Shown here piece after piece: positions 2,223 to 27,050 of a stretch of 64,000 nt of DNA (positions are counted from its first letter, which is position 1; every line of letters begins with the position of its first letter). This stretch comes from Janthinobacterium rivuli (GTDB lineage Bacteria; Pseudomonadota; Gammaproteobacteria; Burkholderiales; Burkholderiaceae_D). The DNA lies in the NCBI RefSeq assembly GCF_029690045.1, contig NZ_CP121464.1, positions 4,092,001 to 4,156,000 on the forward strand, given 5' to 3'. The position numbers were made by a program, and so were the translations under genes. The notes beneath the pieces were generated by a model. That model was not told the origin of the DNA. It worked only from the letters and a program-made list of their open reading frames with translations, and searched no databases.

Positions 2223-2227
2223 TTCTT

Positions 2228-4927: not shown

Positions 4928-5058
4928 GCGAACTATCCAGTGTAAGTGCCTGCCCGATCTTGTCGCGCAGATAATGCATCCAGCCAATTTTAATTCATGA
5001 AGCCAACTTTATTGTGTAAAAACAATAAATTAGCGATCTTTTTTTCATGCAGTTGACC
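4928..5058. other. Intergenic gap between mshP and mshI with an AT-rich hairpin
   Basis: 131 bp without a gene, clearly richer in A/T than its surroundings. It contains a perfect 8-bp inverted repeat, TTTATTGT (5008-5015) and ACAATAAA (5022-5029), with a 6-nt loop. It most likely holds the promoter of the mshI block, but no convincing -35/-10 pair could be assigned. Confidence 0.4.
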
Positions 5059-7553: not shown

Positions 7554-7565
7554 TGGATGGCCCGT

Positions 7566-7601
7566 AAAAAAGCCCAACGGGCTGGCGCCTGGGGTTGGGC
7601 T
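7566..7601 (-). terminator. Rho-independent-type terminator between mshA and mshC
   Basis: Read on the minus strand: an 8-bp perfect stem (AGCCCAAC at 7601-7594 when transcribed, GTTGGGCT at 7578-7571) with a 15-nt GC-rich loop, followed at once by a run of T. A second hairpin (arms 7612-7622 and 7634-7644, 11 bp with one G-U pair in the minus-sense RNA) lies between mshA and this terminator. Partial termination here would give much mshA mRNA and little mRNA for the minor pilins. Confidence 0.75.
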
Positions 7602-7659
7602 GGTGGTGCGCAAGGAAGGCCAAGGACGTTACCTGGCCCTCCTTGCAGATCAGTGCAAC

Positions 7660-8133: not shown

Positions 8134-8211
8134 TCTTGCTTTCTCCAAAATCAAATAAAAAATTCAAAACCAACGCCATGAAACTGTCGCCGCACCGGAC
8201 CAGAAAGCGCC

Positions 8212-9953: not shown

Positions 9954-9954
9954 C

Positions 9955-11658: not shown

Positions 11659-11866
11659 GCTTGCTCCTCGACAGATTCTTCAGACGATGCGCGCCAGCGG
11701 CGCGCGCAGGTATTTTATTCCAGAACCTGTTGTTTCTTAAAGAAAATACATTGCGTGGCTTGATTTTCGCGCATTTCGACACTCTGCAAGGAAACACTTG
11801 CCGCCCGCCAGCACCCATGGCAATAATGGCGGCCGTACCCCGCCTTGCCTGCCGCCCCTTGCCCCT

Positions 11867-12595
11867 ATGAACGCCTGCGCCATCGAGTTCCACAACGTGC
11901 ATCTGCAACTGGCGGGCAGCGCCGTGCTGCGCGGCGTCGACCTGCAGGTGCGCGCGGGAGAACTGTTCGGTCTGGTTGGCGTGAATGGCGCGGGCAAGAC
12001 ATCGCTGCTGAAATGCCTGCTCGACTTTTGCGCGCCCGAGCGGGGAAACATCACCATCTTCGGCCAGCCGCATCGCCACGGCGCGGCGCGCCAGCCCCTG
12101 TCGTTTCTGCCGGAACGCTTCCAGGCACCCCATTACCTGACGGGCGGCGACTTCCTGCGCTACCTGGCCCGCCTGCACAAGGCGCCCCCCGATGCGCAGG
12201 CGCAGCAACAAACCCTGGACGCGCTGGAACTGGCGCCAGACGCCCTGCTGCGCCCCGCGCGCGAGTATTCAAAAGGCATGATGCAAAAGCTGGGACTGGC
12301 CGCCTGCTTGCTGTCGGGCAAGCCGCAACTGGTGCTCGATGAACCGATGAGCGGACTCGACCCGAAGGCGCGCGCGCAATTCAAGCAAGTGCTGCGGCAA
12401 GCGCGCGCGCAAGGCCGCGGCGCCCTGCTCACTTCGCATGCGCTGGCCGACGTGGAAGAATTGTGCGACCGCATGGCCATCCTGCATGCGGGCCGCATCG
12501 TGTTTACAGGTACGCCCGCCGAATGCCGCGCGCGCCATGGCGGCGCCGAAGACGCCAGCCTGGAACAGGCTTTTCTCAATTGCATCGCGACATGA
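11867..12595 (+). CDS. ABC transporter ATPase at the head of the second pilus-like cluster
   Basis: ABC ATP-binding subunit of 242 residues: Walker A GVNGAGKTS near residue 38, an atypical signature region EYSKGMMQKLGLA (SKGM in place of LSGGQ, common in ABC-2-type export ATPases), Walker B LVLDEPMSGLDP and the switch His in TSHAL. Likely works with the ABC-2 permease at 24502-25275, 12 kb downstream in the same operon. The ATG at 11867 lacks a clear ribosome site; a TTG at 11798 with AAGGA upstream would add 23 residues and could be the true start. Stop overlaps the next gene (ATGA). Confidence 0.88.
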   Translation: MNACAIEFHNVHLQLAGSAVLRGVDLQVRAGELFGLVGVNGAGKTSLLKCLLDFCAPERGNITIFGQPHRHGAARQPLSFLPERFQAPHYLTGGDFLRYLARLHKAPPDAQAQQQTLDALELAPDALLRPAREYSKGMMQKLGLAACLLSGKPQLVLDEPMSGLDPKARAQFKQVLRQARAQGRGALLTSHALADVEELCDRMAILHAGRIVFTGTPAECRARHGGAEDASLEQAFLNCIAT

Positions 12596-14094
12596 ACGCC
12601 CCTGTCTCCGCGCCGCACGCCGCCAGCCCCTACGCGCCCGCGCCGCACGGCATGTATCTGCGCCATTTCGGCTTGCGCACGGCGCCGTTCGGCATCACGC
12701 CGGACCCGGCCTTCTTTTATCCCGGCAATACACGGGGCGAACTGCTCGATGCGCTGCTGTATGCCGTCACGCAAGGCGAAGGCATCATCAAGCTGACGGG
12801 CGAAGTGGGCAGCGGCAAGACCATGTTGTGCCGCATGCTGGCCGAGCGCCTGCCGCCCCATGTTGACGTGCTGTACCTGCTCAATCCCCGCCTGGAGCCG
12901 GACGACGTGCTGCACGCCATCGCCGCCGAACTGGGCCTGGAACTGGACGGATGCCGCGCCGATGCCGTGCTGCGCGTCCTGCACGGCGAGCTGATCACCC
13001 GGCATGCGGCGGGACGGCAGGTGGTGCTGCTGGCCGAAGAAGCGCAAGCCATGCCGGGCGCCACGCTGGAAGCGCTGCGCCTGCTGACGAATCTGGAAAC
13101 GGCCAGCCACAAGCTGCTGCAAATCGTCCTGTTTGGCCAGCCGGAATTGCAGCACACCCTGGACTTGCCGCAGTTTCGCCCATTGAAGGAACGCATCACC
13201 CACAGTTTTAGCGTGCCGCCCCTGCCGCCAGCCTTGCTGGGCGACTACCTGGCATGCCGCCTGAGCGCCGCCGGCCGCACGGCGCCGCTCGTCTTCACGC
13301 CGGCCGCACTGCGCAAGCTGGCGCGCGCCGCGCAAGGCATCGTGCGCAGGGTCAACATTTTGGCCGACAAGGCCTTGCTGGCCGCGTTTGCGGACGATGC
13401 ACAGGAAATCAGTGCGCGCCACATGCGCCTGGCCATTGCCGACAGCCCCTTTTACCGCGCGCCCTGGCATGCGGGCAAGCTGCTGGCGGGCGCCTTGAGC
13501 GCGCTGATGCTGCTGGCCACGGCGCTGCTGTGGCAATGGCTGGCGAACAGCCCGGGCAAGACAGCGGCGACCGTCAGGACGGCCCCGCCGGCAAGCCAGG
13601 CATTCCAGGCATCGCAGGCATCGCAGGGACATGCCACCACGCCCGCCGACGCGCACCCAGGCGCGCTGCAGGCAGCCGCGGCGCGCGCACCGCTGCCAGC
13701 GCCATCCACGCTGCTCGACAACAAGCTGGCCGAATCGCGCGACTGGCTGGCCCGCCAAGGGGCGCAGCAACTGGTGCTGCAAATCGCCAGCCTGCCCGCC
13801 ACCGAGACGGCTGCGGCGGAAACCTTCCTGCAGCAGGCGCAGCAAGCCACGGGCCTGCACGACCTCCACGTGTTTCGCCTGCCTGGCGGCGCGCCCGCAA
13901 AGACGCCGCGCAATACCTCCGCCGCGCGCCTGCTCATCGTCTACGGCAGCTTTGCCGACCAGGCCAGCGCCGAAGCCGTGCGGGCCAGGCTGGCCCCGGC
14001 ATCGCCACAGAAAATATTGCTGAGCGACATAGATAGTATCCGCACGGAAATGAAAGCCATGATCGCGGCAAAAACCGGGCGTGGCGCCCCCTGA
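12592..14094 (+). CDS. ExeA/MshM-like AAA ATPase with C-terminal membrane segment
   Basis: AAA ATPase of 500 residues. N-terminal FGLRTAPFGITPDPAFFYPG is the ExeA/MshM signature, Walker A GEVGSGKT is near residue 73 and Walker B QVVLLAEEAQAMPG near 140. The ATPase domain ends around residue 280, followed by one membrane helix (LLAGALSALMLLATALLW), an Ala/Gln/Ser-rich spacer and a C-terminal domain with SPOR-like look (LVLQIASL and LLIVYGSFADQASAEAV), which would bind peptidoglycan. Probably helps pass or assemble the secretin encoded next. Paralogue of the partial mshM at the left edge. Confidence 0.85.
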   Translation: MNAPVSAPHAASPYAPAPHGMYLRHFGLRTAPFGITPDPAFFYPGNTRGELLDALLYAVTQGEGIIKLTGEVGSGKTMLCRMLAERLPPHVDVLYLLNPRLEPDDVLHAIAAELGLELDGCRADAVLRVLHGELITRHAAGRQVVLLAEEAQAMPGATLEALRLLTNLETASHKLLQIVLFGQPELQHTLDLPQFRPLKERITHSFSVPPLPPALLGDYLACRLSAAGRTAPLVFTPAALRKLARAAQGIVRRVNILADKALLAAFADDAQEISARHMRLAIADSPFYRAPWHAGKLLAGALSALMLLATALLWQWLANSPGKTAATVRTAPPASQAFQASQASQGHATTPADAHPGALQAAAARAPLPAPSTLLDNKLAESRDWLARQGAQQLVLQIASLPATETAAAETFLQQAQQATGLHDLHVFRLPGGAPAKTPRNTSAARLLIVYGSFADQASAEAVRARLAPASPQKILLSDIDSIRTEMKAMIAAKTGRGAP

Positions 14095-14201
14095 CTTTAT
14101 TTCCGCATATTGCCTCCCGGGCCTGCACAGCTGATTGCTTTTAAGCGATCATGCTGGGTAAAATTACAAAAGCACAACACGACTTCAAGGGCGAACTTTT
14201 C

Positions 14202-16145
14202 ATGACTCAACACCCTATTCCTGTGCTGGCCTTTTGGGTCGCCCTCGCCTGCAGCACCATGCTGGCCGGCTGCGCCACGCATCAAACGCCGCTGTCGCCT
14301 GCCCACCTCAATGCCGCGCCCGTTCCCGCCGGCGTCATTCCCGAACCGGTGCAGCAAAGCAGCGCGCTGGCCGCGCCCTTGCCCGCGCCCAAAGTGGAAA
14401 CCTACAGCGTCACCGTGCACAAGGTGCCCGTGCAATCGCTGCTGTTTGCGCTGGCGCGCGACGCGGGCATGAATATCGACATCCACCCGCAGATCGAAGG
14501 CAGCGTCACCTTGAATGCGCTGAACCAGACCCTGCCGCAACTGCTGGCGCGTATCGGCAAGCAAGTCGATATGCGCTACGAAATCGAGGGCAAGAACCTG
14601 ACCGTGCTGCCCGACGCGCCCGTGTGGCGCAATTACAAGGTCGATTACGTCAACATGGCGCGCAGCACCAACAGCAGCGTGAATATCGCCACGCAAATCT
14701 CCACGGCGGGTGGCGGGTCGAACAACGCCAGCAACCCCGTGGGCGGTACGCAGGGCAGCGGCGGCAATGGCAATAACAATTCGACTACCCTGGTCGTGAA
14801 TCGTTCGGAAAATAATTTCTGGTACAGCCTGGAAAAGAATATCCGCGACCTGCTGCGCGAGACCACGCTCAACGATGTGCAGGTGGACCCGCTGGCGCAG
14901 CTGAACCAGCAATTGACGAGCATGCCCGGCCAGCAAGGACAGCAGGGACAGCAAGTCCAGCCCGGCCAGCAGCAGAATCAGGCCGGCAATCAATACGGCG
15001 GCCAGGCGCCGATGCAGACTGGCGGCCAGTATGCGCCAGGCCAGCAGCAGGGGCCCATCCAGAACGCGAATCCCGGCCAGCCGCTCGATGCGAACGGCAT
15101 GCCGCTGTTAAAGCTGGCCAACAAGGGCAGCCCCTCGTCCGTCGTCGTCAACGTGGAAGGCGGCCTGATCGCCGTGCGGGCCACGGGGCGCCAGCATGAA
15201 AAGATCGCCGAATTCCTCGACGCCGTGTTGCACAGCGCCAAGCGGCAAGTGCTGATCGAGGCGACCATCCTTGAAGTGCGCCTGAGCAATGAATACCAGC
15301 AAGGCATCAACTGGTCGCGCCTGACGGGCAGCCTGCAACTGCGCCAGGGGCAAGTGGGCACGGCGGGCCTGTCCAGCGGAGTCACGCCCGGCGCCACGCC
15401 CGGCATCTTCGTGCTCGATTACCTGAAGGACAGTTTCAAAACGACCATACAGCTGCTCGAATCGTTCGGCAAGGTGAAAGTGCTGTCCAGCCCGAAGATC
15501 AGCGTGCTGAACAACCAGACGGCCATGCTGAAGGTGGTCGACAACAATGTCTTCTTTACCATCAAGGTGACGCCCGCCGTGATCAGCTCGACGGGCACCA
15601 TCACCACGCCGGCCACGTATGAATCGAAACTGGAAACGGTGCCCGTCGGCTTCGTCATGAGCGTCACGCCGCAGATTTCCGACAGCGATGAAGTCACCCT
15701 CAACGTGCGTCCCACCATCACGCGCATCGTGGGCTATGTGCAAGACCCGAATCCGGCCCTGGCCACGGCCAACGTGCAAAGCCGCGTGCCCGTGATCCAG
15801 GCGCGCGAGCTGGAATCGATCATGAAAGTGGGCAATGGCCAGATCGCCGTGATGGGCGGCCTGATGCAGGACTCCATCGACAACGCCCGCGATGGCGTGC
15901 CGGGCCTGTCCAGCCTGCCCGTCGTGGGCAATTTGTTTACCTACCGCAATGAGGCAAGCAGCAAGACGGAGCTGGTGATCTTCATGCGCCCCGTCGTCGT
16001 CAAGGATGCCAGCGTCGAGGGCGATTACCGCGCTTACCGCTACCTGCTGCCAGGCCAGGCGCCGCTCAACAGCCAGCCCTACACGGATGGCCCGCCGGCG
16101 CCGGCCGTCCGGCCGCAGGCGCGCCTGCAGGGAGATTTTCCATGA
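14202..16145 (+). CDS. Second secretin lipoprotein (MshL/PulD-like)
   Basis: Outer-membrane secretin of 647 residues. Signal peptide ends in the lipobox LAGC near residue 24. An STN/secretin N-domain (about 70-145) is followed by an Asn/Gly/Ser linker, a striking Gln/Gly/Pro-rich segment (about 245-310) and the secretin domain with VKVLSSPKISVLNNQTAML, then IAVMGGLMQ and a C-terminal TELVIFMRPVVV. ATG at 14202 with AAGG upstream; the frame is open from 14151 but the earlier start lacks a signal peptide. Architecture matches mshL, but the glutamine-rich insert is its own. Confidence 0.9.
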   Translation: MTQHPIPVLAFWVALACSTMLAGCATHQTPLSPAHLNAAPVPAGVIPEPVQQSSALAAPLPAPKVETYSVTVHKVPVQSLLFALARDAGMNIDIHPQIEGSVTLNALNQTLPQLLARIGKQVDMRYEIEGKNLTVLPDAPVWRNYKVDYVNMARSTNSSVNIATQISTAGGGSNNASNPVGGTQGSGGNGNNNSTTLVVNRSENNFWYSLEKNIRDLLRETTLNDVQVDPLAQLNQQLTSMPGQQGQQGQQVQPGQQQNQAGNQYGGQAPMQTGGQYAPGQQQGPIQNANPGQPLDANGMPLLKLANKGSPSSVVVNVEGGLIAVRATGRQHEKIAEFLDAVLHSAKRQVLIEATILEVRLSNEYQQGINWSRLTGSLQLRQGQVGTAGLSSGVTPGATPGIFVLDYLKDSFKTTIQLLESFGKVKVLSSPKISVLNNQTAMLKVVDNNVFFTIKVTPAVISSTGTITTPATYESKLETVPVGFVMSVTPQISDSDEVTLNVRPTITRIVGYVQDPNPALATANVQSRVPVIQARELESIMKVGNGQIAVMGGLMQDSIDNARDGVPGLSSLPVVGNLFTYRNEASSKTELVIFMRPVVVKDASVEGDYRAYRYLLPGQAPLNSQPYTDGPPAPAVRPQARLQGDFP

Positions 16146-17512
16146 GCTTGCTGATGCAGGCGCTCAAGAAAGCCGAGCGCGCCAAACAGAACAGCCTTTC
16201 CGACGAGGAACTGGAAAAGCCGTCCGAAGCCTACGACCAGGTCCTGGAACTGGCGCCGGCCGACGCCCTGCCGCCCCGTCCCGTGCCGGCCACGCCAGCG
16301 CCCGTGCACCCGGCCAGCACCTTGCGCCTGGAACCGCTGGCGGACGCGCCCGCGCCGCAGCCCGAGTCGAGTAGCGCGCAGCCTGGTCCGCCTCCGGAAC
16401 CGCCACGCGCGCGCCCCGAACCGCCGCCCGCCCGGCCACGCGCCAGCCGCAGCAATCCGCCGCCGAAAGGTCCCACTGGCCCCATCAGCGTCGACCCGGC
16501 CACCGTGCGCCTGGCCGTGCTGCTGGCGATATTGCTGCTGGTGGCTGGCTCCATGGCGTACTGGTACTGGCGCGCCAGCACCAGCCCCGGCGCGGGCGCC
16601 AGCCTGCCCGGCGTGCCCATGCCGCTGACGGACGCTCCGGGCGCGGCCGGCGTTGCCGGCCCCGTGCTGGTGCTGCCGGCCACGGGTGCCGCGCCGACGG
16701 ACGCCATGACGCCTGCCGCACTGCCGCCCGACTATCCGCGCGACGCGCGCCAGCAGACAGCTGCGGCGGACCAGCAGGCGATGATCCAGGCCGCCGTGGC
16801 GGCGCAGCTGGCGCAGCTGGCCCCGCCTGCGCCACCGAGCCTGCCACCGGTGGCCGCGCCCGACAATAGCCAGATCCAGGTGCAGCGCAGCGTGGCCGCG
16901 CCGCAAATCAACCCCGGCGTGCAGCAAGCCTACCAGGCCTTCAACGGCGGCCAGCTGGGCCTGGCTCGTCAGCAATATGAAACCGTGCTGCGGCAGGATG
17001 CGAATAACCGCGACGCGCTGCTGGGCCTGGCGGCCGTGGCCCTGCGCGAGCAGCAAGGCGCGCAAGCGGCGGCCCTGTACGTGCGTTTGCTGGAAACCAA
17101 TCCCGACGATGGCGAAGCGCTGGCCGGCCTGATCGGCCTGCGCCAGGGCGACGTGGCGCAGAGCGAAGCAAGGCTGAAAGCCATCCTGGCGCGCAGCCCC
17201 GACAGCGCGCCCGTGCTGTTTGCACTGGGCAATGTGTATGCCAAGCAGCGCCGCTGGAACGAAGCGCAGCAGCAATTTTTCCGCGCCTATGGCGCCGCGC
17301 CCGGCAATCCCGACTATGCCTTCAACCTGGCCGTGGGCCTGGATCGGCTGAACCAGCCCCGGCTGGCCGCCACGTATTACCAGCGCGCCTTGACCCTGGC
17401 ACAAGCGGCGCCCGCCGCCTTCGACCAGGCCGTCGTGCAAACGCGTTTGCGCGAATTGACGGCACCTGTGGCCACGGCCGAGCCGGCCACCATCCCACCC
17501 CGTCAGGAATAA
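16142..17512 (+). CDS. TPR-containing membrane protein (MshN-like)
   Basis: Bitopic protein of 456 residues. It opens MSLLMQALKKAERAKQ, the standard start of MshN/GspB-like proteins of these clusters. A Pro-rich cytoplasmic region (about 40-115) is followed by one membrane helix (about 121-140, LAVLLAILLLVAGSMAYWYW), a Pro/Ala-rich periplasmic linker and TPR repeats from about residue 260 to 430. It probably bridges the inner-membrane machinery with the secretin. Start overlaps the secretin stop (ATGA) with GGGAG upstream. The first MSHA locus shows no mshN, so this may be the only copy nearby. Confidence 0.85.
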   Translation: MSLLMQALKKAERAKQNSLSDEELEKPSEAYDQVLELAPADALPPRPVPATPAPVHPASTLRLEPLADAPAPQPESSSAQPGPPPEPPRARPEPPPARPRASRSNPPPKGPTGPISVDPATVRLAVLLAILLLVAGSMAYWYWRASTSPGAGASLPGVPMPLTDAPGAAGVAGPVLVLPATGAAPTDAMTPAALPPDYPRDARQQTAAADQQAMIQAAVAAQLAQLAPPAPPSLPPVAAPDNSQIQVQRSVAAPQINPGVQQAYQAFNGGQLGLARQQYETVLRQDANNRDALLGLAAVALREQQGAQAAALYVRLLETNPDDGEALAGLIGLRQGDVAQSEARLKAILARSPDSAPVLFALGNVYAKQRRWNEAQQQFFRAYGAAPGNPDYAFNLAVGLDRLNQPRLAATYYQRALTLAQAAPAAFDQAVVQTRLRELTAPVATAEPATIPPRQE

Positions 17513-17519
17513 GCATCAC

Positions 17520-19223
17520 ATGGCAGAACAGGCAAAACTTCCCCTCGGCAAGCTGCTGATCCAGAAAGGTGTGATCAGCGAAGACCAGCTGCGCATCGCC
17601 CTGATCGAGCAGCGGCGCAGCAGCGAGCCGCTGGGCAAGCTCTTGATCACCCTGGGTTTTGTGACGGAAGCGACCGTGCGCGAGGCGCTCAGCGAAAACC
17701 TGAAACAGGTCAGCGCCGATCTGTCGAGCCTGGTGGTCGACGCCATTGCATTAAAACTGATCCCGAAGGACGTGGCCAAGCGCTACCGGGTGTTTCCTAT
17801 CGTCTACGAACGGCAGGCGGACAACCTGATCCTGGCCATGGCCGACACCAGCAACATCGTCGCGCTCGACCAGATCAGCGCCATGCTGGTCAAGGGCATC
17901 ACGATTTCCACCGTGCTGGTCAACGAATCGGACATTTCGCGCGCCATCGACCAGTACTATGGCTTTGAACTGTCGATCGACGGCATACTGCACGAAATCG
18001 AAACGGGCGAAGTCAGCTATCAAAGCATGGCCTCGCCGTCGGACGAGTACAGCCAGCCCATGGTGCGCCTGATCGATGCGCTGCTGGCCGATGCCGTGCA
18101 AAACGGCGCCTCGGACATCCATTTCGAGCCGGAACAGTCGTTCCTTCGCATCCGCTACCGCATCGACGGCATCCTGCGGCAAATCCGCAGCCTGCACAAA
18201 TCGTACTGGCCGGCCATGGCCGTACGCCTGAAGGTGATGTCGAACATGAATATCGCCGAGGCGCGCGCGCCGCAGGATGGGCGCATCAGCATCAAGTTTT
18301 CCGGGCGGCAAATCGACTTTCGCGCGTCGGCGCAGCCCACCACGCATGGCGAAAACGTCGTGCTGCGCGTGCTGGACCGGCAAAAAGGCATCGTCCCGCT
18401 CGATTCGCTGGGCCTGGCCGAAGCGGAGCTGAACTTGCTGAAACTGATGATCGCGCGCCCCGACGGCGTGATCCTCGTGACGGGCCCGACGGGCAGCGGC
18501 AAGACCACCACCCTGTATTCGATACTCAACCATATCAATACGGAAAGCGTCAACATCATGACCCTGGAGGATCCGGTCGAGTATCCGATGAACATGATAC
18601 GCCAGACTTCCGTCAACGAATCCGTCAAGCTGGGCTTTGCCGACGGCATCCGCTCGATGATGCGGCAAGACCCGGACATCATTTTAGTGGGCGAGATCCG
18701 CGACCGCGAAACGGCGGAAATGGCCTTTGCCGCCGCCATGACGGGCCACCAGGTGTATTCCACCCTGCATACGAGCTCGGCCATCGGTTCCGTGGCGCGC
18801 TTGCTCGACATCGGCATCCTGCCCGACATCATGGCTGGCAACATCATCGGCATCGTGGCGCAGCGCCTGGTGCGCCGTTTGTGTCCGCACTGCAAGGAAA
18901 CGGTGATCGCGGACGCCATCGAGCGCCGCCTGCTGGGCCTGGTCCCGGACGAGGCGCCCGTGTCCATCTGCCGCGCCGCCGGTTGCGAGCGCTGCGCCCA
19001 CCAGGGCTACAAGGGCCGCCTGGCCATCATGGAAATCCTCAAGATGACGGCCGAACTCGATGAATTGACGGCACGCCGCGCCAGTTCGCGCGAATTGAAG
19101 AATGCGGCGCGCGCAGCCGGCTTCAAGGGCATCGTCGACGACGGCATGCGCCGCGTGATGGAAGGCGTCACCACCCTGGAAGAAGTGGGCCGCGTGGTCG
19201 ACCTGACGGAAAGGCTGGCCTGA
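17520..19223 (+). CDS. Second type II/IV secretion ATPase with MshEN-type N-domain
   Basis: GspE/PilB/MshE-family ATPase, 567 residues, the same length as MshE and collinear with it (Walker A TGPTGSGKTT at 321-330 in both). Two MshEN-like motifs are present, PLGKLLIQKGVISEDQLRIA (from 8) and PLGKLLITLGFVTEATVREA (from 37), but the residue before each Leu-Gly is Pro, where MshE here has Arg and Lys. The Walker B-type DPDIILVGEIRD and the tetracysteine pairs CPHC and CERC are intact, so the enzyme should be active. c-di-GMP control is plausible but less certain than for MshE. Stop overlaps the next start (TGATG). Confidence 0.92.
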   Translation: MAEQAKLPLGKLLIQKGVISEDQLRIALIEQRRSSEPLGKLLITLGFVTEATVREALSENLKQVSADLSSLVVDAIALKLIPKDVAKRYRVFPIVYERQADNLILAMADTSNIVALDQISAMLVKGITISTVLVNESDISRAIDQYYGFELSIDGILHEIETGEVSYQSMASPSDEYSQPMVRLIDALLADAVQNGASDIHFEPEQSFLRIRYRIDGILRQIRSLHKSYWPAMAVRLKVMSNMNIAEARAPQDGRISIKFSGRQIDFRASAQPTTHGENVVLRVLDRQKGIVPLDSLGLAEAELNLLKLMIARPDGVILVTGPTGSGKTTTLYSILNHINTESVNIMTLEDPVEYPMNMIRQTSVNESVKLGFADGIRSMMRQDPDIILVGEIRDRETAEMAFAAAMTGHQVYSTLHTSSAIGSVARLLDIGILPDIMAGNIIGIVAQRLVRRLCPHCKETVIADAIERRLLGLVPDEAPVSICRAAGCERCAHQGYKGRLAIMEILKMTAELDELTARRASSRELKNAARAAGFKGIVDDGMRRVMEGVTTLEEVGRVVDLTERLA

Positions 19224-20428
19224 TGGCGCAATATGTCTACCGCGCCATGGATGCCGCCGGCGCGCTGATTCCCGGCAGCATGGAGGCGGCCAACGTGCCG
19301 GATCTGGAAGCGCGCTTGCACCGCATGCAGCTCGACTTGATCGACTGCAAGATCACGGGGCAGTACCTGGTACTGCTGGGCAAGCGGGTCATCCACCGGC
19401 GCGACCTGATCAATTTCTGTTTTCACATGGAGCAATTGACGGGTGCGGGTGTGCCCATCCTGGAAGGCTTGAATGACTTGCGCGAAAGCACGGACCACCC
19501 GCGCCTGCGCGAAGTCGTCACGGATCTGATCGAAAGCATCGAGGGCGGCCTGCCCCTGTCGGGCGCGCTGGCGCAGCATGGCGACATCTTCGACGCCACG
19601 TTCACCAGCCTGATACTGGCGGGCGAACAGAGCGGCAAAATCGCCGACGTCTTCAAGAATCTGTCCGAAAGTCTGAAATGGCAGGACGAGCTGGCCTCGC
19701 AGACGCGCAAGATCGTCATGTACCCCGTCATCGTCGCCATCGTCGTGGCGGCCGTGACGTTTTTCCTGATGATCTATCTGGTCCCCCAGCTGACGGCTTT
19801 TATTCGCAACATGGGCGGCGAACTGCCGCTGCACACGCGCGTGCTCATTGCCGTGTCGAATGTGTTCATCGACTACTGGTATCTGCTGCTGGCTTTGCCC
19901 GTGCTGCTGTTCTTCGGCCTGCGCGCGCTGATCCGCCGCAGCGAGGCGGCCCGCTATGCCTGGGATGGCTTGAAACTGCGGCTGTGGCTGATCGGCCCCG
20001 TGCTGCACAAGATCATCCTGGCCCGCTTCGCCACGTTTTTTGCCCTGATGTATGCCTCCGGCATCACGATACTCGAATGCATCCGCCTGTCCGAAGGCAT
20101 CGCCGGCAACCAGGTGGTGGCGGCCGGCCTGCGCCGCGCCGCCCAGCTGATCAGCGAAGGCTACGGCGTCACCGCCGCCTTCCAGCACACGGGCATCTTC
20201 CCGCCGCTGGTGATCCGCATGCTGAAGGTAGGCGAGGCCACGGGTTCGCTGGACACGGCCTTGCGCAATGTCAGCTACTTTTACAACCGCGAAGTGAAGG
20301 AATTGATTGAAAAAGTGCAAGCCATGATCGAGCCGGCCATGACGGTCATCCTGGGCTTGCTGCTGGGCTGGATCATGCTGTCGGTACTGGGGCCGATTTA
20401 CGACACCATCAGCACAATCAAAACCTGA
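19223..20428 (+). CDS. GspF/PilC-family platform protein of the second cluster
   Basis: Inner-membrane platform protein of 401 residues with two GspF domains (about 65-190 and 270-390) and membrane helices around 170-190, 210-232 and 370-392. Family motifs: FCFHMEQLTGAGVPILEGL, ILAGEQSGKIADVF and LKVGEATGSLDTALRNV. It pairs with the ATPase encoded immediately upstream. More divergent from MshG than expected for a recent duplication. Confidence 0.9.
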   Translation: MAQYVYRAMDAAGALIPGSMEAANVPDLEARLHRMQLDLIDCKITGQYLVLLGKRVIHRRDLINFCFHMEQLTGAGVPILEGLNDLRESTDHPRLREVVTDLIESIEGGLPLSGALAQHGDIFDATFTSLILAGEQSGKIADVFKNLSESLKWQDELASQTRKIVMYPVIVAIVVAAVTFFLMIYLVPQLTAFIRNMGGELPLHTRVLIAVSNVFIDYWYLLLALPVLLFFGLRALIRRSEAARYAWDGLKLRLWLIGPVLHKIILARFATFFALMYASGITILECIRLSEGIAGNQVVAAGLRRAAQLISEGYGVTAAFQHTGIFPPLVIRMLKVGEATGSLDTALRNVSYFYNREVKELIEKVQAMIEPAMTVILGLLLGWIMLSVLGPIYDTISTIKT

Positions 20429-20435
20429 GGCCGCC

Positions 20436-21998
20436 GTGTTCCGCAAACAATTACTTTACCTCACCAGCGACGCCCTGTGCGCCTACGACTGGGACCATGG
20501 CGTGCTGGGCCCGGGCCAGACCTTCGCCGCCAGCGCGGCCGGGCTGGACGGCTTCGCCGCGTGGCTGGAAGACCCGCAGGCGCACCGTCTGGACGTGCCC
20601 GCCTACCTGCTGACGGACTTGATCGAGGAAGATTTCCAGCATCAGCTCGTGCCCCACGTGCGCGGCAAGGCGGGCCGCGCCCTGCTGGAGCGGCGCCGCC
20701 AGCAGTTGCACCGCGACACGCCCTACCGGGGCAGCACCGTGCTGGGCCGCGAAAGCACGGGCCGCCACGATGACCAGGTACTGTTTTTCGCCCTGACCAA
20801 CCCGTCCTTGTTGCAGCCGTGGACGGAGGCGCTTGAACACTTGCGCGTGCCCGTGGCCGGCATTTATTCGACCAGCCTGCTCAGTATCGCGCTGGTCAAA
20901 AAGCTGTCGCTCGCGCATGAACACTTGCTGCTGGTGACGCAGCAATCGGGCGGCTTGCGGCAAAGTTACTATGAAAAGGGCCAGCTGCGCTTTTCGCGCC
21001 AGACGGCCACCATCGCGCTCGACGGCGTGGCCGTGAATATCGTCCTGGAAACGGAAAAGACGCGGCAATTTCTCACCAGCACGCGCATGCTGGCGCGCGG
21101 AGACCTGCTCAATACCGTCATCCTGGCGCCGGCCGCGCAGATCGCCAAGCTTGAACTGCTGTGCGACAACGGCGTCGAAGTGGCCTACCACTTCATCGAC
21201 CTGCAACGGGCCGGCGCACGGGTGGGCTTGCGCCAGACGCCGGCGCTGGCCGATGCATTGCTGCTGACCTTGCTGGGCAAGCATCCGCCGGCCAGTCACT
21301 ATCCGCCCGGCGCGCTGGCCCGCTACTACCACTTCCAGCGCGCGCGCAAGACGCTGTATGGCGCCAGCGCGCTGATCGGCGCGTCGGCCGCCCTGTGGTG
21401 CGTGATCAATTTGCTTGGCGGCATCGCCGATGGTGCCGCCACGCAACGGCTGGCGCAGGAAACGGCGTCCTACCAGGAACGCTACCGCAGCGTCATGTCG
21501 ACGCAGCCGCCGGCGCCGGCCAGGACGCAGAACATGAAAGTGGCCGTCACTCTGGGCCAGATGATCGCCAGCCAGGCGCCGGAACCGGGCCGCCTGCTGG
21601 GCCTGCTGAGCGCGGCGCTGGACCAGGCGCCGCAAATCCAGCTGGGCCAGCTGCACTGGAACGCGGGACCGCCCCCGGCGCGCACGAGCGGCAGCCAGCA
21701 AGCGCCGCAGACGGAAAGCGCTCGCCCGCTGGGCAGCAGCCTGGCCGGCATCCCTGTCGCGCCGCCGCAGGCGCTGCGCCTGGAAGCGGACGTGGCCATG
21801 CCGAACAATGACTACCGCACCGCGCTGGCCGCCATCACGGCGTTTGCGCAAACCCTGGCGCGCCAGCCGGGCATGCAGGTAAGGATAGAGGAAACGCCGC
21901 TCGACTTGCGTCCCAGCGTGGCCTTGTCCGGCAAGAGCGCCGCGCCGGCGCCGGACAGCCAGGCCCGCTTTACCCTCTTGCTGGAGTGGCAGCCATGA
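20436..21998 (+). CDS. Fused PilM/PilN-like (GspL-type) assembly protein
   Basis: Protein of 520 residues that looks like a fused PilM-PilN or GspL. The N-terminal half resembles a degenerate actin-like domain (MFRKQLLYLTSDALCAYDWD; LLLVTQQSGGLRQSYYEKG), one membrane helix lies at about 310-330 (GASALIGASAALWCVINLL), and the C-terminal part is a PilN-type coiled coil plus alpha/beta domain. GTG start with TGAGG upstream. It lies exactly between the platform protein and the PilO-like gene, as pilM/N do. Assignment rests on position, topology and weak motifs. Confidence 0.7.
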   Translation: MFRKQLLYLTSDALCAYDWDHGVLGPGQTFAASAAGLDGFAAWLEDPQAHRLDVPAYLLTDLIEEDFQHQLVPHVRGKAGRALLERRRQQLHRDTPYRGSTVLGRESTGRHDDQVLFFALTNPSLLQPWTEALEHLRVPVAGIYSTSLLSIALVKKLSLAHEHLLLVTQQSGGLRQSYYEKGQLRFSRQTATIALDGVAVNIVLETEKTRQFLTSTRMLARGDLLNTVILAPAAQIAKLELLCDNGVEVAYHFIDLQRAGARVGLRQTPALADALLLTLLGKHPPASHYPPGALARYYHFQRARKTLYGASALIGASAALWCVINLLGGIADGAATQRLAQETASYQERYRSVMSTQPPAPARTQNMKVAVTLGQMIASQAPEPGRLLGLLSAALDQAPQIQLGQLHWNAGPPPARTSGSQQAPQTESARPLGSSLAGIPVAPPQALRLEADVAMPNNDYRTALAAITAFAQTLARQPGMQVRIEETPLDLRPSVALSGKSAAPAPDSQARFTLLLEWQP

Positions 21999-22672
21999 GC
22001 GGCCCCGTCAAGCAGCCGCCCCTGCCCGGCATGCAGCGGGCAAGCACGCCCATGCGCACCCTGCCCGCCTGGCTGGGCGAACTGCGCCTGGTGCGCGGCG
22101 CCCTGCTCTGCTTTGCCCTGACCCTGCTGGCCGGCGTGGTACTGCTGAGCCTGAGCACCGCCTACCGCACGCGCGAAGCGCAACAGCTGTACCTGGCACA
22201 GCACACGCGCGCGGCGGCGGCCACCCTGTTCAACCACGCGGAAGCGGAAAAGCAGGAAATCCGCGCCTACGAACCGCAATTCCTGGCGCTGCGCCAGCGC
22301 GGCCTGATCGGCGAAGAAAACCGCCTGGCCTGGATCGACGCCATCCGCCGCAGCCAGGAACAGCGCAAGTTGCTGCCGATCAGCTATGACATCAGCCCGC
22401 AGCAAGGGCTGCAAGTGCCGTTACCGATGGTGATGGGGCAATATCATTTGCGCGGCAGCCGCATGCGCCTGCAGATGGATTTGCTGCACGAGATGGATTT
22501 GCTGAACCTGTTTGACGATTTGCGCCAGGCCGGCTATTTCGCAGTGCAGGAGTGCACACTCAAGCGCCATGGGGCAGCCGGGGCTGGCGGCGCGGCAGCA
22601 CCCACCTTGGGCGCCGAATGCGAACTGCTGTGGCTGACCGTCAACAGCCTGGCCGTGGCGGGGCCGCCATGA
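21995..22672 (+). CDS. PilO/MshJ-like membrane protein
   Basis: Bitopic protein of 225 residues: cytoplasmic N-terminus, one membrane helix at about 34-54 (LLCFALTLLAGVVLLSLS), a coiled-coil region (about 60-115, rich in Ala/Glu/Arg) and a C-terminal domain with a Gly/Ala spacer. Position after the PilM/N-like gene and before a PilP-like gene supports a PilO role. ATG overlaps the previous stop by 4 bp. Confidence 0.65.
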   Translation: MSGPVKQPPLPGMQRASTPMRTLPAWLGELRLVRGALLCFALTLLAGVVLLSLSTAYRTREAQQLYLAQHTRAAAATLFNHAEAEKQEIRAYEPQFLALRQRGLIGEENRLAWIDAIRRSQEQRKLLPISYDISPQQGLQVPLPMVMGQYHLRGSRMRLQMDLLHEMDLLNLFDDLRQAGYFAVQECTLKRHGAAGAGGAAAPTLGAECELLWLTVNSLAVAGPP

Positions 22673-23076
22673 GGTACGCTCTCGTCCTGTGCGCGCTGCT
22701 GGCCGGCGCCGCGCCCACTCTCCATGCACAGGCACAGCAACTGGGGCGCTTGTTCCTGTCGCCCCAGCAGCGCGCCCAGCTCGACGCGCAGCGCTACGGG
22801 CCGCCGCCCCCCGATCCGGCCCTGGCGGCGCCACCGCCCCCGCCACCGCCCGCCCCGCCTGTGGAATTGAATGGCGTGGTGGTGCGCAGCAGCGGCCGCT
22901 CCACCGTCTGGCTGAACCAGGAAGCGCAGAACGAGCCGCACAACCGCCTTGCCCGTGACAAACCCGGCACCTTGACCCTGCGCCTGTCGAACGGCCAGGT
23001 GGTACTGCTGAAACCTGGCCAGCGCTACGATCCGGCCAGCGGCACGGTCACCGAAGTGCAGGAGACCCCGCCATGA
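22669..23076 (+). CDS. PilP/MshK-like periplasmic protein with polyproline stretch
   Basis: Secreted protein of 135 residues with a signal peptide (MRYALVLCALLAGAAPTLHA), a run of prolines (about 42-64, PPPPDPALAAPPPPPPPAPP) and a small beta domain (VELNGVVVRSSGRSTVWLNQ) like the PilP/MshK/GspC homology region that docks on the secretin. ATG overlaps the PilO-like gene by 4 bp; the next gene overlaps its stop likewise. Confidence 0.65.
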   Translation: MRYALVLCALLAGAAPTLHAQAQQLGRLFLSPQQRAQLDAQRYGPPPPDPALAAPPPPPPPAPPVELNGVVVRSSGRSTVWLNQEAQNEPHNRLARDKPGTLTLRLSNGQVVLLKPGQRYDPASGTVTEVQETPP

Positions 23077-23795
23077 CGCCACGGAAAGCTCGTCGCCAGC
23101 GTGGCGCCGCCCTGCTCCTGCTGGTGGCCGTGCTGGGCCTGGGCGCGGCCAGCCTGCTGATCAGCGCTTTTGGCCGCAACACGGGCGAGGCCGAACGCCA
23201 GCAGCGCACCCTGGCCACCCTGGCGCAGGCGCGCGAGGCCTTGCTGGGCTTTGCGGCGGCCAATGGCCGCCTGCCCCGTCCGGCCGCCTCCGCCCTCGAC
23301 GGGCGCGAACGGGCCGCCGACTGCGCCGACGATGCCGCCTGCAGCGGCTTTTTGCCGTGGGTGGCGCTGGGCGTGGACGGCGTGGATGCCTGGGGCAAGC
23401 TGCTGCGCTACAGCGTCACGCCGGAAATGGCGCGCGCGCCCATCGTCTCTTTTTCCGCCATCGCCAACAGGGTCGTGCTTGAACGCGGTTCGCGCGGCGA
23501 ACTTGCCTTCGTGGCGGGCCAGGCGCTGTGCGACGTCAGCGCCCAATGCCTGCCCGTCGTGCTGTTCTCGCAAGGCAAGGATCATTACGGCACGGCCGCC
23601 AGCGGCGTGCCGCGGATCAATACGGCACGCGGCAATATCGATGAGGCGGCCAACGACCGCGCCAGCCGCGGTTTCATTGCCCGCCCCGCCACCGGGAATG
23701 CCGCGCTGCCCGGCGGCGCCTTTGACGACATGCTGACCTGGATTACCTTGCCCACCCTGTACCAACGCATGCGCGCCGCGCGCAATCTGCCATGA
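23073..23795 (+). CDS. Minor pseudopilin-like protein without Glu5
   Basis: Protein of 240 residues with an N-terminal prepilin-like signal RRQRG/AALLLLVAVLGLGAAS. The mature position 5 is Leu, not Glu, as in tip pseudopilins (GspK class). The globular domain contains DGRERAADCADDAACSGFLP and QALCDVSAQCLP, so two Cys pairs are likely. Residues after 105 (WGKLLRYSVTPEMARAP) closely parallel those of the next gene (WNNLLRYSVTPAFSDSG), so the two are paralogues from a local duplication. Confidence 0.75.
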   Translation: MTPRKARRQRGAALLLLVAVLGLGAASLLISAFGRNTGEAERQQRTLATLAQAREALLGFAAANGRLPRPAASALDGRERAADCADDAACSGFLPWVALGVDGVDAWGKLLRYSVTPEMARAPIVSFSAIANRVVLERGSRGELAFVAGQALCDVSAQCLPVVLFSQGKDHYGTAASGVPRINTARGNIDEAANDRASRGFIARPATGNAALPGGAFDDMLTWITLPTLYQRMRAARNLP

Positions 23796-24502
23796 GCGCC
23801 CGCCATCCGCGCCGTCATGGCGGCTTTTCCCTGATCGAGATCGCCATCGTGCTCGTCATCGTGGGCCTGATGATCGGCGGCCTGGTCACGCCCTTGACGG
23901 TGCAGCTGGAGCAGCGCAAGGTGGCCGAGACGCAACAGGCGCTGAATGAAGCGAAGGAAGCGCTGACGGGCTACGCGTTGCGCTACGGCTACCTGCCCTG
24001 TCCCGCCATCTCCGCCGCGAGCGGCCTGGAAGACCGGCGCGGCACGCGCTGCACGGGCGAAAAACGCGCCGGTTTCCTGCCATGGGCCACCTTGGGACTG
24101 CGCCAGGGCGACAGCTGGAACAATCTGCTGCGCTACAGCGTGACGCCGGCCTTCAGCGACAGCGGCCAGCTTTTCAGCCTGTCGACGCCGCGCGACATCA
24201 GCATCGTCACGCGCAATGGCGGCGCGCTGCTGCAGGCGACGGCCTTGAACGACATCCCCGCGATGATCATGTCGCACGGCAAGAACGGTTTCGGCGCCAC
24301 CAGCGCGCAGGGTCAACGCCAGGCTGTGCCTTTCGGCAACAATGTCGACGAACGCAACAATGCCTCGAACGCCACCACCTTCATCAGCCGCGCCGCCAGC
24401 GGCCCGCAGCAGCCGGGCGGCGAATTCGACGATATCGTCGCCTGGCTGTCGCCAAACATCCTGTTCAACCGCATGGTGGCCGCGCAAAGGCTGCCCCGCT
24501 GA
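23792..24502 (+). CDS. Prepilin-like protein (PulG/PilE-type helix)
   Basis: Prepilin of 236 residues with leader MSARHPRRHGG and mature start FSLIEIAIVLVIVGLMIGGL, Glu at position 5. The body is paralogous to the preceding gene (LRYGYLPCPA; GFLPWATLGL; LLRYSVTP; GGEFDDIVAWLSPN). A protease or prepilin peptidase for processing is not in this window. Start overlaps upstream stop by 4 bp; stop overlaps the ABC permease by one base. Confidence 0.8.
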   Translation: MSARHPRRHGGFSLIEIAIVLVIVGLMIGGLVTPLTVQLEQRKVAETQQALNEAKEALTGYALRYGYLPCPAISAASGLEDRRGTRCTGEKRAGFLPWATLGLRQGDSWNNLLRYSVTPAFSDSGQLFSLSTPRDISIVTRNGGALLQATALNDIPAMIMSHGKNGFGATSAQGQRQAVPFGNNVDERNNASNATTFISRAASGPQQPGGEFDDIVAWLSPNILFNRMVAAQRLPR

Positions 24503-25275
24503 TGCCCATGCTCCTGCCCTCGCTCACCATCGCCCGCTACACGCTGCTCGAAGCGCTGCGCAGCCGCCTGCCGTGGCTGTTCCTGCTGGCCGCCTGCGGC
24601 GCGGCCGCCCTGGCCGGCTTCCTGCAGCAACTGGCGCTGACGGAAAGCGGCGCCGTGCAGGCGGCCCTGCTGGCGGCCACCCTGCGCCTGGCCGGCGTCT
24701 TCCTGCTGGCTACCTTCATCATCACCAGCATGGCGCGCGAAGCGGCCGACCGGGGCCTGGAACTGCTGCTGGCGCTGCCGATGCCGCGCGCCGCCTACCT
24801 GCTGGGCAAACTGCTGGGCTATGGCACGCTGGCGGCCATTCCCGCCGCGCTGTCCGGACTGTTGATGGCGCCGTTCGCCGCGCCCGCGCAATGCGCGCTG
24901 TGGGCGCTGTCGCTGTTGGGAGAATTGTGGATCATCGCCGCCTTCAGCCTGCTGTGCGCGGCCAGCCTGCAGCAAGCACTGCCGGCGCTGGCCGCCACGG
25001 GCGGCTTTTACGTGCTGGCGCGCATGCTGGGCAGCCTGCAACTGCTGGCGCATGGCCCGCAGGCGGGCGATTCCCTGGCTCAACGGGCCACGGCCGGCGC
25101 CATCGATGTGCTGGCCTTGCTGCTGCCCCGCCTGGACGCGTTTACCCGTACGGAATGGCTGCTGTACGCCACCGGCGACTGGCAGGCGCTGCTCAACGTG
25201 GCGGCGCAAACCGGCATCTATGTGGCCTTGCTGGCCAGCTGCGCATTGTGCGACTTTTACCGCAGGAACATCTGA
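24502..25275 (+). CDS. ABC-2-type (NosY-like) permease
   Basis: Membrane protein of 257 residues with about six helices. The start LTIARYTLLEALRSRLPWLF and the segment FIITSMAREAADRGLELLLA are typical of ABC-2/NosY-type permeases. The only ABC ATPase in the operon is the first gene (11867-12595), so the two probably form one transporter even though the pilus-like genes lie between them. Coupled to both neighbours by 1-bp stop/start overlaps. Substrate unknown. Confidence 0.8.
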   Translation: MPMLLPSLTIARYTLLEALRSRLPWLFLLAACGAAALAGFLQQLALTESGAVQAALLAATLRLAGVFLLATFIITSMAREAADRGLELLLALPMPRAAYLLGKLLGYGTLAAIPAALSGLLMAPFAAPAQCALWALSLLGELWIIAAFSLLCAASLQQALPALAATGGFYVLARMLGSLQLLAHGPQAGDSLAQRATAGAIDVLALLLPRLDAFTRTEWLLYATGDWQALLNVAAQTGIYVALLASCALCDFYRRNI

Positions 25276-25997
25276 TGGCTGCCGCGCAACGTCCCTGGAC
25301 CAGCGTGCCGCGCCCCGTGTGCTGGGTGCTGGCGGCTTGCCTGTTATTGCAGCTGGGCTGGCGCCTGGCGCAGCAGCACGCTCCCGCCCAGGCACGCCCC
25401 CTGCCCGCCGCGCCGCCGGCTGGCGTGGCGCGCCTGGCCAGCCTGGGCGAACCGCTGGCCATGTCGAAAGCCATGCTGCTGTACCTGCAATCGTTCGAAG
25501 ACCAGGCCGGCGTCAGCCTGCCGTGGCGCGAACTCGACTATGACCGCCTGGCCGGCTGGCTGGAGACGGCGCAAACGCTCGATCCGCGCAGCCAGTACGC
25601 GCTGGTGGCCGCCGGCGAGGTGTATGCCGGCGTGGCCGATCCGCAACGCGCGCGCCGCATGCTCAACTTTGTCGCCGCCAGCTTCGCGGCCGACCCGCGG
25701 CGCCGCTGGCCCGCCATGGCGCAGGCCGTGCTGGTGGCGAAGCACCAGTTGCACGACTTGCCGCTGGCGCTCGGCTATGCCCGCATGCTGCGCCGGCTGG
25801 CGACGGGACCGCACGTGCCGCCTTGGGTGCGCGAGATGGAAGCGTTCATCCTGGAAGACATGGACCAGCTCGACGGCGCCCGCCTGGTGATCGGCGGCTT
25901 GCTCGCCAGCGGCCAGATCAATGACCCGCACGAACTGGCTTTCCTCGCGCGCCGGCTCGACGAACTGGCCAGGAAGAAAGCACAGGCCGCACCATGA
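25275..25997 (+). CDS. Membrane-anchored TPR-like protein of unknown function
   Basis: Protein of 240 residues with one N-terminal membrane helix (VCWVLAACLLLQLGWRLA, about 15-32) and an otherwise helical periplasmic part with repeats of TPR/SEL1 flavour (LETAQTLDPRSQYALVAAGE; QRARRMLNFVAASFAADPRR; LVAKHQLHDLPLALGYAR). Not recognised as a named family. Its start overlaps the permease stop (TGATG), so it may be a partner of the transporter or of the pilus-like machine. Confidence 0.7.
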   Translation: MAAAQRPWTSVPRPVCWVLAACLLLQLGWRLAQQHAPAQARPLPAAPPAGVARLASLGEPLAMSKAMLLYLQSFEDQAGVSLPWRELDYDRLAGWLETAQTLDPRSQYALVAAGEVYAGVADPQRARRMLNFVAASFAADPRRRWPAMAQAVLVAKHQLHDLPLALGYARMLRRLATGPHVPPWVREMEAFILEDMDQLDGARLVIGGLLASGQINDPHELAFLARRLDELARKKAQAAP

Positions 25998-26084
25998 CAG
26001 GCTGCCTGAAATGCCATGCGCATCGGGCACCAATTGCAGTAAACTGCCATCTCAAGCTGTAGCACTTTTTTCCAAGGAAATCCC

Positions 26085-26657
26085 ATGCCCCCACGCCGCC
26101 AGCACGGCTTTACGCTCGTAGAAATCGCCATCGTCCTGGTCATCATCGGCTTGCTGCTCGGTGGCGTGCTCAAGGGGCAAGGCTTGATCGACAGCGCCAA
26201 GGTAAAAAACATCATCCAGCAATCGAACGCGCTGACGGCCGCCGTCAACGCCTACCAGGACAAATTCCGCGCCCTGCCCGGCGACGATCTGCAGGGCACC
26301 GTGCACGTGCCCAATTCGGCCGGCAACGGCAATGGCGACGGCCAGATCGGCGACGGCCAGCCGCGCGAATTCACCCTGGCGCCGCAACACCTGGCGTTGG
26401 GCGGTTTTATTACCGGCTCGTTCAACGGCACCTCGCAATTCATGACCAGCGCCCAGGGCGGCGCCGTCTACCTGTACAACGATGAGGTGGGCGGCCGGGC
26501 CGGCAACGGCATCCGTTTCGACAACCTGCCCGAGAGCTACGCGGAGCAGATCGACAGCAAACTCGACGATGGTGTGGCCGGCACGGGCAGCGTCCGGGCG
26601 AACATGCCCTACGGTAATGCCGGTGCTATCATTGCCCGCACCGCCGTCTTTTTCTGA
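26085..26657 (+). CDS. Type IV prepilin-like protein, last gene of the second cluster
   Basis: Prepilin of 190 residues with a short leader MPPRRQHG and mature start FTLVEIAIVLVIIGLLLGGV (Glu5), followed by LKGQGLIDSAKVKNIIQQSN, a sequence typical of major pilin/pseudopilin helices, then a Gly/Asn-rich loop (NSAGNGNGDGQIGDG). Preceded by an 87-bp gap and a good AAGGAAA site, so it may have its own promoter and be made in excess. The best candidate for the main fibre subunit of this system. Confidence 0.8.
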   Translation: MPPRRQHGFTLVEIAIVLVIIGLLLGGVLKGQGLIDSAKVKNIIQQSNALTAAVNAYQDKFRALPGDDLQGTVHVPNSAGNGNGDGQIGDGQPREFTLAPQHLALGGFITGSFNGTSQFMTSAQGGAVYLYNDEVGGRAGNGIRFDNLPESYAEQIDSKLDDGVAGTGSVRANMPYGNAGAIIARTAVFF

Positions 26658-26684: not shown

Positions 26685-27050
26685 ATGTCACTGCACCGCA
26701 AACTCATCGTCTCCCTGGCCGCCGCCTGCGCCTTGCTGGCCGGCAGCGCGCACGCCCAATACGTGGGCCCGACGGCCGGCCCGGCCGCGCCCAGCAATGT
26801 GGCCGCCATCCTGAAAAACCCCGTCGACGACCAGGCCGTCGTGCTGCGCGGCCATCTGCTGCGCAAAGTGGGCAACGAGAAATACACCTTCTCCGACGGC
26901 ACGGCGGAAATCCGCGTGGACATCGACGACAAGGTCTTCATGAATCGCAAGATCGACGCCAAGACCCGCGTGGAAATCCGCGGCGAAGTGGAAAAAGACT
27001 TCATGGAAAGCCCGGAAATCGATGTCGACGCGCTGACCGTGGTCCCGTAA
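26685..27050 (+). CDS. YgiW/YdeI-type OB-fold (BOF) periplasmic protein
   Basis: Small secreted protein of 121 residues. Signal peptide MSLHRKLIVSLAAACALLAG with cleavage after AHA, then the BOF domain with its usual marks: VVLRGHLLRKVGNEKYTFSD and IRVDIDD, ending VDALTVV. YgiW/YdeI proteins are linked to stress tolerance and bind ligands weakly known. ATG with AAAGGAA upstream; followed by a GC-rich hairpin. Confidence 0.85.
   Translation: MSLHRKLIVSLAAACALLAGSAHAQYVGPTAGPAAPSNVAAILKNPVDDQAVVLRGHLLRKVGNEKYTFSDGTAEIRVDIDDKVFMNRKIDAKTRVEIRGEVEKDFMESPEIDVDALTVVP

Follow-up and report, generated by a model that had tools for sequence, protein, structure and literature searches.

A candidate ABC accessory module inherited with MSHA-type filament genes in Janthinobacterium rivuli and other Pseudomonadota

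Why does a run of type IV filament genes in Janthinobacterium rivuli begin with the ATPase of an ATP-binding cassette (ABC) transporter and carry a permease near its end? The run lies in a window of 64,000 nucleotides (contig NZ_CP121464.1, positions 4,092,001 to 4,156,000, of a single-contig genome of 6.33 Mb) and consists of 14 genes, here lettered A to N, all on the plus strand at 11867-26657 (Table 1). An earlier note on this DNA had named the ABC ATPase (A) as the first gene and the permease (L) as the third from last, and had proposed that the pair is functionally joined to the filament; we confirmed the coordinates and strand of the genes, and with them the two positions. A and L probably make up a dedicated ABC machine, an optional, co-inherited accessory of a filament of the mannose-sensitive haemagglutinin (MSHA) type, with a third gene product, M, as periplasmic partner, acting on pilins or on the filament machine.

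Genomes were counted in sets of 100 relatives, 329 Burkholderiales, 323 members of the class and 299 of the phylum, tallies that include the window's own genome; order names are our presumptive assignments, and genomes and loci of the survey carry G and L numbers. Orthology was called at thresholds that we set ourselves: for L, E<1e-40 in the Burkholderiales scan, with a clear gap to the next best match at 9.2e-18; for A, E<1e-55 there and 1e-50 outside the order, where weaker second A-like matches fell at about 1e-51 to 1e-54 and the counted best matches at 8.6e-74 or better. The Burkholderiales scan matched 94 genomes, 29 of which were discarded as weak. G, the PilM/N-like gene, served as marker of the filament core.

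Among the 329 Burkholderiales genomes, 63 held both A and L, two L alone, two A alone and 262 neither, the corresponding figures for the 142 genomes with G being 59, 2, 2 and 79. Fisher values computed on these counts take no account of relatedness and are not to be taken as probabilities. Of the 100 relatives, 49 had L and 60 had G. Among the 25 genomes checked for A, orthologues (51-58% identity) turned up in nine of 11 L-bearing genomes, in none of 11 with a filament cluster but no L, and in none of three same-genus genomes without the cluster, all three of which were rated 100% complete and lacked A, L and G together. The two L-bearing genomes without A were G065 (68% complete) and G093 (99% complete, with a cluster contig starting at the secretin). 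Presence also differed within genera. For example, in genus g34, G072 carried A and L and five genomes (G120, G193, G282, G309 and G380) carried neither; in g94, G161, G225 and G359 had both, whereas G254 and G335 had neither; and in g43, G169 had both, whereas G081, G128 and G201 had neither.

Outside Burkholderiales, the class sample added 45 L-bearing genomes and the phylum sample 17, and of these 62 genomes, 61 had an MSHA-type PilM/N gene and 58 had A, which was not found in the L-bearing G648, G745, G753 and G796. Eight genomes outside the order held two L copies each (G723, G726, G736, G745, G783, G786 and G796 of the phylum sample and G573 of the class sample). Overall, the PilM/N marker was present in 122 of the 127 L-bearing genomes, and at least three of the genes C-I lay upstream of L in 96 of the 117 loci with 9 kb upstream. 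A free-standing A-L-M transporter was also considered for loci L081, L061 and L087, in which L and M have few or no pilus genes nearby, and was rejected: filament ATPase regions fetched from the same genomes (G475, G755 and G436) showed an MSHA-like core elsewhere. Specifically, about 15 kb separate a core C-I from A and L in the 1.5 Mb genome of G475, whose locus had at first seemed pilus-free, and in G755 and G436 the core has weak G and H genes. In G414, neither of two E regions fetched was a clear MSHA core, and the PilM/N marker is present in the genome.

The earlier note had also suggested a search for the same bracketing of the filament genes by ATPase and permease. We found it in Burkholderiales: of the 33 genomes of this order with both genes on one contig, 32 have A no more than 25 kb upstream of L. 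Elsewhere, 36 of 41 same-contig genomes have A on the downstream side of L, at most 10 kb away, commonly in the order L-M-N-A towards the end of the filament genes; the remaining 21 of the 62 genomes either have A and L on separate contigs or gave no match to A. Because of this second arrangement, the bracketing is the layout of one order, and we rejected it as a conserved feature in its own right. The genes also persist when separated: L-M-N, the core and A occupy three separate places in G225; G151 has L-M-N on a contig that holds neither A nor the core; A and the core share one contig (L095) and L is on another in G187; and A and L are likewise split over separate places in G109.

Co-divergence was assessed by a mirror-tree test on 22 of the 28 loci with A, L, M, E, F and G, near-identical ones being dropped and locus L030 being omitted from the controls. 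The distances of A and L correlated at 0.91, and at 0.80 after removal of the core signal, a value that none of 2000 permutations reached; with three separate core regressors, the correlation was 0.73 (0.68-0.76 on leaving out one locus at a time). The controls, with two or one regressors, gave 0.36 for A-G (given E and F), 0.41 for L-G, 0.42 for A-F and 0.41 for L-F, and the core pair F-G gave 0.68 given E. On co-occurrence, layout and distance correlation together, we rejected the possibility that A and L are unrelated neighbours. Given their near-perfect co-occurrence, their retention when unlinked, their co-divergence and the company of the PilM/N marker, the comparison of sequences supports the view that A and L are partners that belong together and to this filament machine, and the functional link proposed by the earlier note gains partial support from the same observations.

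The nearly constant third gene, M, was not singled out in the earlier note. It lies directly behind L in 72 of the 76 L loci with 1 kb downstream available, and no M without L was seen among loci L009-L108. Where 7 kb of sequence downstream of L was available, 36 of 44 loci have an N-type pilin in that stretch, and in G072 response regulator-like and kinase-like open reading frames (ORFs), recognised by eye, stand between M and N (L025:16498-18376). Loci L109-L188 were picked by M and are left out of these two counts; they are included in the count of core genes upstream of L given above and in that of complete C-N orders given below. The structure model of M (predicted local distance difference test, pLDDT, 89.0) shows a helix at residues 13-33, which we take as a probable membrane anchor, followed by a solenoid that is helical but for short strands. 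Compared with the PDB, the model had no match at E 0.001 or better; its weak matches include designed tetratricopeptide repeat (TPR) proteins, PilW and PilF. A profile search scored 7997 candidates and yielded at least 1710 relatives of M (clustered at 90% identity). Pfam domains were found in none of 21 members scanned and in none of the 120 relatives listed, of which the named ones are called hypothetical protein; among relatives with a named source, the closest are from Janthinobacterium, and relatives also occur in two metagenome-assembled genomes labelled Desulfobulbaceae and Deltaproteobacteria. Two permease copies without M, at L055:9530-10321 and L066:2077-3009, are each convergent with a gene that we take, from its N-terminal sequence, to be RecN-like.

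What the pair may do is suggested by the proteins themselves. In A, the ATPase motifs (Walker A GVNGAGKT, signature YSKGM, Walker B LVLDEP and the switch His) are intact, with invariant positions. ABC2_membrane_3 was found by Pfam in 19 of 21 members of the L family. The structure model of L (pLDDT 91.3) had ten PDB matches at E<=0.001, all of them NosDFY or NosFY chains (best E 3.1e-5, template modelling score 0.62-0.68) that we take, by length and fold, to be NosY; the next fold matches were ABCG25 and PmtD, and by sequence only PmtD was matched (E 0.016). A query with a distant L returned only 12 proteins, among them one from Magnetococcales and one that its source calls a multi-copper enzyme maturation permease. 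The A profile scored highest in the PDB with ABCA transporters (ABCA3, 228 bits), NosF reaching 175 bits among the bacterial entries listed.

Because L has a NosY-like fold and its TPR-like partner is nearly constant, we favour, on the strength of these models, a motor acting on a protein partner over free export. In this scheme, A and L would probably stand as A2L2; L would be moved by ATP hydrolysis in A and would transmit this motion to the periplasmic TPR-like domain of M. The target of M would be either the pilins, N, J or K being the likeliest, or the assembly platform, with the outcome that filaments are formed or primed. The motor would thus be like NosFY, and its role like that of PilGHI of Myxococcus xanthus, rather than the export of an independent small molecule. 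More tentatively, MSHA-type filaments in many lineages may possess a second energy input, independent of the extension ATPase, in which a NosFY-type motor transports nothing and pushes periplasmic M to prime or gate pilin assembly, PilGHI being another case of the same principle; we regard this extension as possible rather than probable.

Alternatively, the pair could be a true exporter of a lipid, glycan or small peptide that decorates or anchors the filament. ABC-2 permeases commonly move glycolipids, peptides or drugs, the fold matches of L to the exporters ABCG25 and PmtD and the top score of A with ABCA lipid transporters point the same way, and the link to the cluster is also compatible with export; given these likenesses, we stay open to transport. 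However, the 14 genes gave no match to a glycosyltransferase or to another enzyme of lipid or glycan synthesis or modification, and reading the ORFs left unassigned in four other loci, by eye only, revealed no glycosyltransferase or modifying enzyme; in addition, M appears to resemble a protein-binding TPR fold. We therefore consider such an exporter unlikely, and the suggestion in the earlier note that the pump feeds or extracts a lipid-linked part receives no direct support from the genes matched. Another possibility is that the pair is needed for translocation of pilins across or into the inner membrane, as has been ascribed to PilGHI. The frequent N-type pilin downstream of L would fit; however, prepilins generally use the signal recognition particle/Sec route, and an N-like pilin is kept in some clusters without the module (L011, L015, L018, L020 and L108), making this role quite unlikely in our estimate.

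Several observations weigh against a dedicated A-L-M accessory. The core is widespread without the module, A and L both being absent from 79 of the 142 core-bearing Burkholderiales genomes, and the module is therefore an optional accessory, not a core part; the earlier note had held that absence of the ABC genes from most otherwise conserved clusters would speak against a link, and for this order such absence was found in part. One of the 100 relatives, G059 (86% complete, its cluster contig ending inside the gene set), carries A without L, and no PilM/N gene was found in the L-bearing genomes G117, G141, G245 and G281 of Burkholderiales and G695. The G117 contig (L096) carries A, B, J, K, L, M and N, with C-I missing between B and J through either decay or an assembly fault. 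Four of the 76 loci (L055, L060, L066 and L077) hold L without M behind it, and no other cluster profile was matched in L055, L066 and L077. M did not clearly co-diverge beyond the core, its partial correlation being 0.25 with A, a value reached in 155 of 2000 permutations, and 0.27 with L, reached in 135 of them, and M, as a TPR-like solenoid, differs from the partner of NosFY. In the window, A abuts a second, minus-strand machine, and the A gene of G040 is 0.8 Mb away from the cluster, where its neighbours are E/F genes belonging to another machine. Furthermore, the sampled genomes are related and the counts are not independent, and genomic association alone is no proof of assembly into one machine.

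Two further explanations rest on some of these points. An unrelated exporter could be hitchhiking in the operon, as the many core-bearing genomes without the module and the lone L copies away from pilus genes (L055 and L077) would allow; we find this very improbable in view of the near-perfect co-occurrence of A with L and the core, their persistence when split and the nearly fixed M. A could also regulate or serve the second machine rather than the MSHA-type set, given that it is divergently adjacent to the ATPase gene of that machine in the window and next to E/F genes far from the MSHA cluster in G040. However, A co-occurs with L, and outside Burkholderiales it lies downstream of L in most same-contig genomes, so that we consider this explanation very improbable too. 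A dedicated A-L-M accessory of the filament is still the reading that we regard as probable.

The assignment of the core to the MSHA type rests on several matches. E meets the MshE cyclic di-GMP (c-di-GMP) motif model NF053729, and its matches to PilB and GspE models stay below their equivalog cut-offs. C is best matched, among the secretin models listed, by the MshL model TIGR02519, at a score just below the cut-off of 250.2 bits. B is ExeA-like through its AAA_22 match, with no match to an MshM-specific model, and we rejected it as an XrtA/PEP-CTERM ATPase on its score with TIGR03015. F is GspF-like, below the TIGR02120 equivalog cut-off. G, H and I had no informative Pfam match, and their names rest on position and size; the G profile met a PilN chain in the PDB only at E 1.1, ranked after three unrelated entries. 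K and N both carry a prepilin motif, and the Pfam scan showed none in J. The gene order of the locus differs from that of the Vibrio MSHA. The MshE-type motif, MshL-like secretin, ExeA/MshM-like ATPase, TPR protein and GspF-like platform are shared with the MSHA filament, from which this locus differs by the added A-L-M module. In addition, no prepilin peptidase was matched among the 14 proteins (A-D, G-J, L and M by Pfam; E, F, K and N by NCBIfam), and absence of the peptidase gene from the locus is a trait of MSHA loci according to an excerpt of PMC6668835.

The run had been described as tightly overlapped. We found it to be on one strand with nine overlapping junctions, of 4 bp at A/B, C/D, G/H (with the H start at 21995), H/I, I/J and J/K and of 1 bp at E/F, K/L and L/M; the other four junctions are gapped, by 56 or 107 bp at B-C (depending on the start of C), 7 bp at D-E, 7 bp at F-G and 87 bp at M-N. 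The order of the 12 genes C to N was complete in 41 of the 180 fetched loci, 18 from L009-L108 and 23 from L109-L188, some of them from the same genomes, a recurrence beyond chance. Pattern scans gave five promoter-like sites against 2.2 in shuffles (standard deviation 1.6), the one at 11798-11827 shortly preceding A. For terminator-like sites, the count was 18 against 14.3 in shuffles (standard deviation 3.9); these scans do not decide whether the run is a single transcript.

Table 1. Genes of the filament run and other features of the window, with the matches or observations on which each assignment rests
Feature	Position	Strand	Basis
A: ABC ATPase, 242 aa	11867..12595	+	ABC_tran 77 bits; possible start ATG 11867
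B: ExeA/MshM-like AAA ATPase, 500 aa	12592..14094	+	AAA_22 92.7 bits; TIGR03015 205.9 bits, below cut-off 324.5
C: MshL-like secretin	14202..16145 (alternative start 14151)	+	Secretin 129 bits; TIGR02519 249.4 bits
D: TPR protein at the place of MshN	16142..17512	+	TPR families (Pfam)
E: MshE-like extension ATPase, c-di-GMP motif	17520..19223	+	NF053729 66.2 bits, cut-off 38
F: GspF/MshG-like platform protein	19223..20428	+	TIGR02120 280 bits, cut-off 424
G: PilM/N-like protein, survey marker of core	20436..21998	+	conservation across surveyed genomes
H: PilO-like	21995..22672	+	position and size; syntenic homologues
I: PilP/MshK-like	22669..23076	+	position and size; syntenic homologues
J: pilin-like protein	23073..23795	+	syntenic homologues; no Pfam prepilin motif
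K: prepilin	23792..24502	+	TIGR02532 18.7 bits, cut-off 16.3
L: ABC-2 permease, NosY-like fold	24502..25275	+	ABC2_membrane_2 33.9 bits, cut-off 27.2; fold matches
M: conserved family without name, 240 aa	25275..25997	+	N-terminal helix 13-33 and TPR-like solenoid in model
N: prepilin, often behind M	26085..26657	+	TIGR02532 26.7 bits
Second machine: secretin	405-2222	-	
Second machine: T2SSM-like	2614-3294	-	
Second machine: PilM_2-like	3968-4987	-	
Second machine: T2SSF	8718-9953	-	
Second machine: T2SSE with MshEN domain	9955-11658	-	divergent from A, 208 bp between
Betaproteobacteria toxic small RNA (RF02278), three copies	39811-39871, 45278-45338, 47856-47916	-	Rfam, 56-57 bits each

The second machine, type II secretion or filament-like, occupies 405-11658 on the minus strand and also holds three ORFs with prepilin motifs. 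Nine secretin domains were found in the whole genome (G000), two of them inside the window. On the other side, a BOF (bacterial OB-fold) gene at 26685-27050 starts 27 bp after N, and a profile match at the same place was seen only in close relatives.

Many such machines, but not all, carry the module, which points to a possible second source of energy or control that has been overlooked in these filaments, and environmental hosts such as Janthinobacterium or Duganella are available for asking what an ABC motor does in a type IV filament; there is also reason to name the M family.

Among known systems, NosDFY is an ABC machine for assembly of the copper site of nitrous oxide reductase, in which NosD is the periplasmic beta-helix partner. 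The present module is like it in the fold of the permease, in the similarity of A to NosF and in having a third protein as partner. It is unlike it in that M is predicted to be a TPR-like solenoid, not a NosD-like beta-helix, and the 14 genes include no match to NosD or to a copper enzyme. GldAFG is an ABC-2 transporter linked to a surface motility machinery; A and L, however, fall far below the curated cut-offs of GldA (92.9 bits, cut-off 402.6) and GldF (13.9 bits, cut-off 288.5).

The nearest functional precedent, likened by gene content and role rather than by sequence, appears to be PilGHI of M. xanthus (MXAN_5782-5780), the ABC transporter of the type IVa pilus cluster, which excerpts of PMC3924187 describe as an extracytoplasmic protein (receptor), an ABC ATPase and an ABC membrane protein, together 'Necessary for social motility, pilus assembly and pilus subunit (PilA) export'. 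Excerpts of other papers state that PilGHI is indispensable for moving pilin across the inner membrane (PMC3724824), and that homology-based matches occur in almost all bacteria studied while experimental support for the transport role is lacking (PMC6060248). The claim of the earlier note that no standard operon of this kind includes an ABC exporter therefore does not extend to type IV pili, for which PilGHI is a precedent (PMC3724824, PMC3924187). It stands for MSH systems insofar as Denise et al. 2019, in the excerpted text, name no ABC transporter as a part (PMC6668835). Likewise, the matches listed from the open-licence PMC literature included no paper whose title deals with an ABC transporter in MSHA loci, and no occurrence of the word ABC was found in a review of pilus assembly (PMC11656802) or one of type IV filaments (PMC4471445). 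As in M. xanthus, an ABC ATPase and permease are here co-inherited with a type IV pilus gene set, and a third protein, M, is present, with a predicted N-terminal helix and a TPR-like domain that would lie on the periplasmic side; the setting differs, being a type IVa pil cluster there and an MSHA-like locus here. PilGHI has so far been discussed mainly in Myxococcus, whereas the comparable module described here spans many families of Pseudomonadota. PilGHI is thus an earlier case of an ABC transporter among type IV pilus genes, and what appears to be new is a comparable module on MSHA-type filaments.

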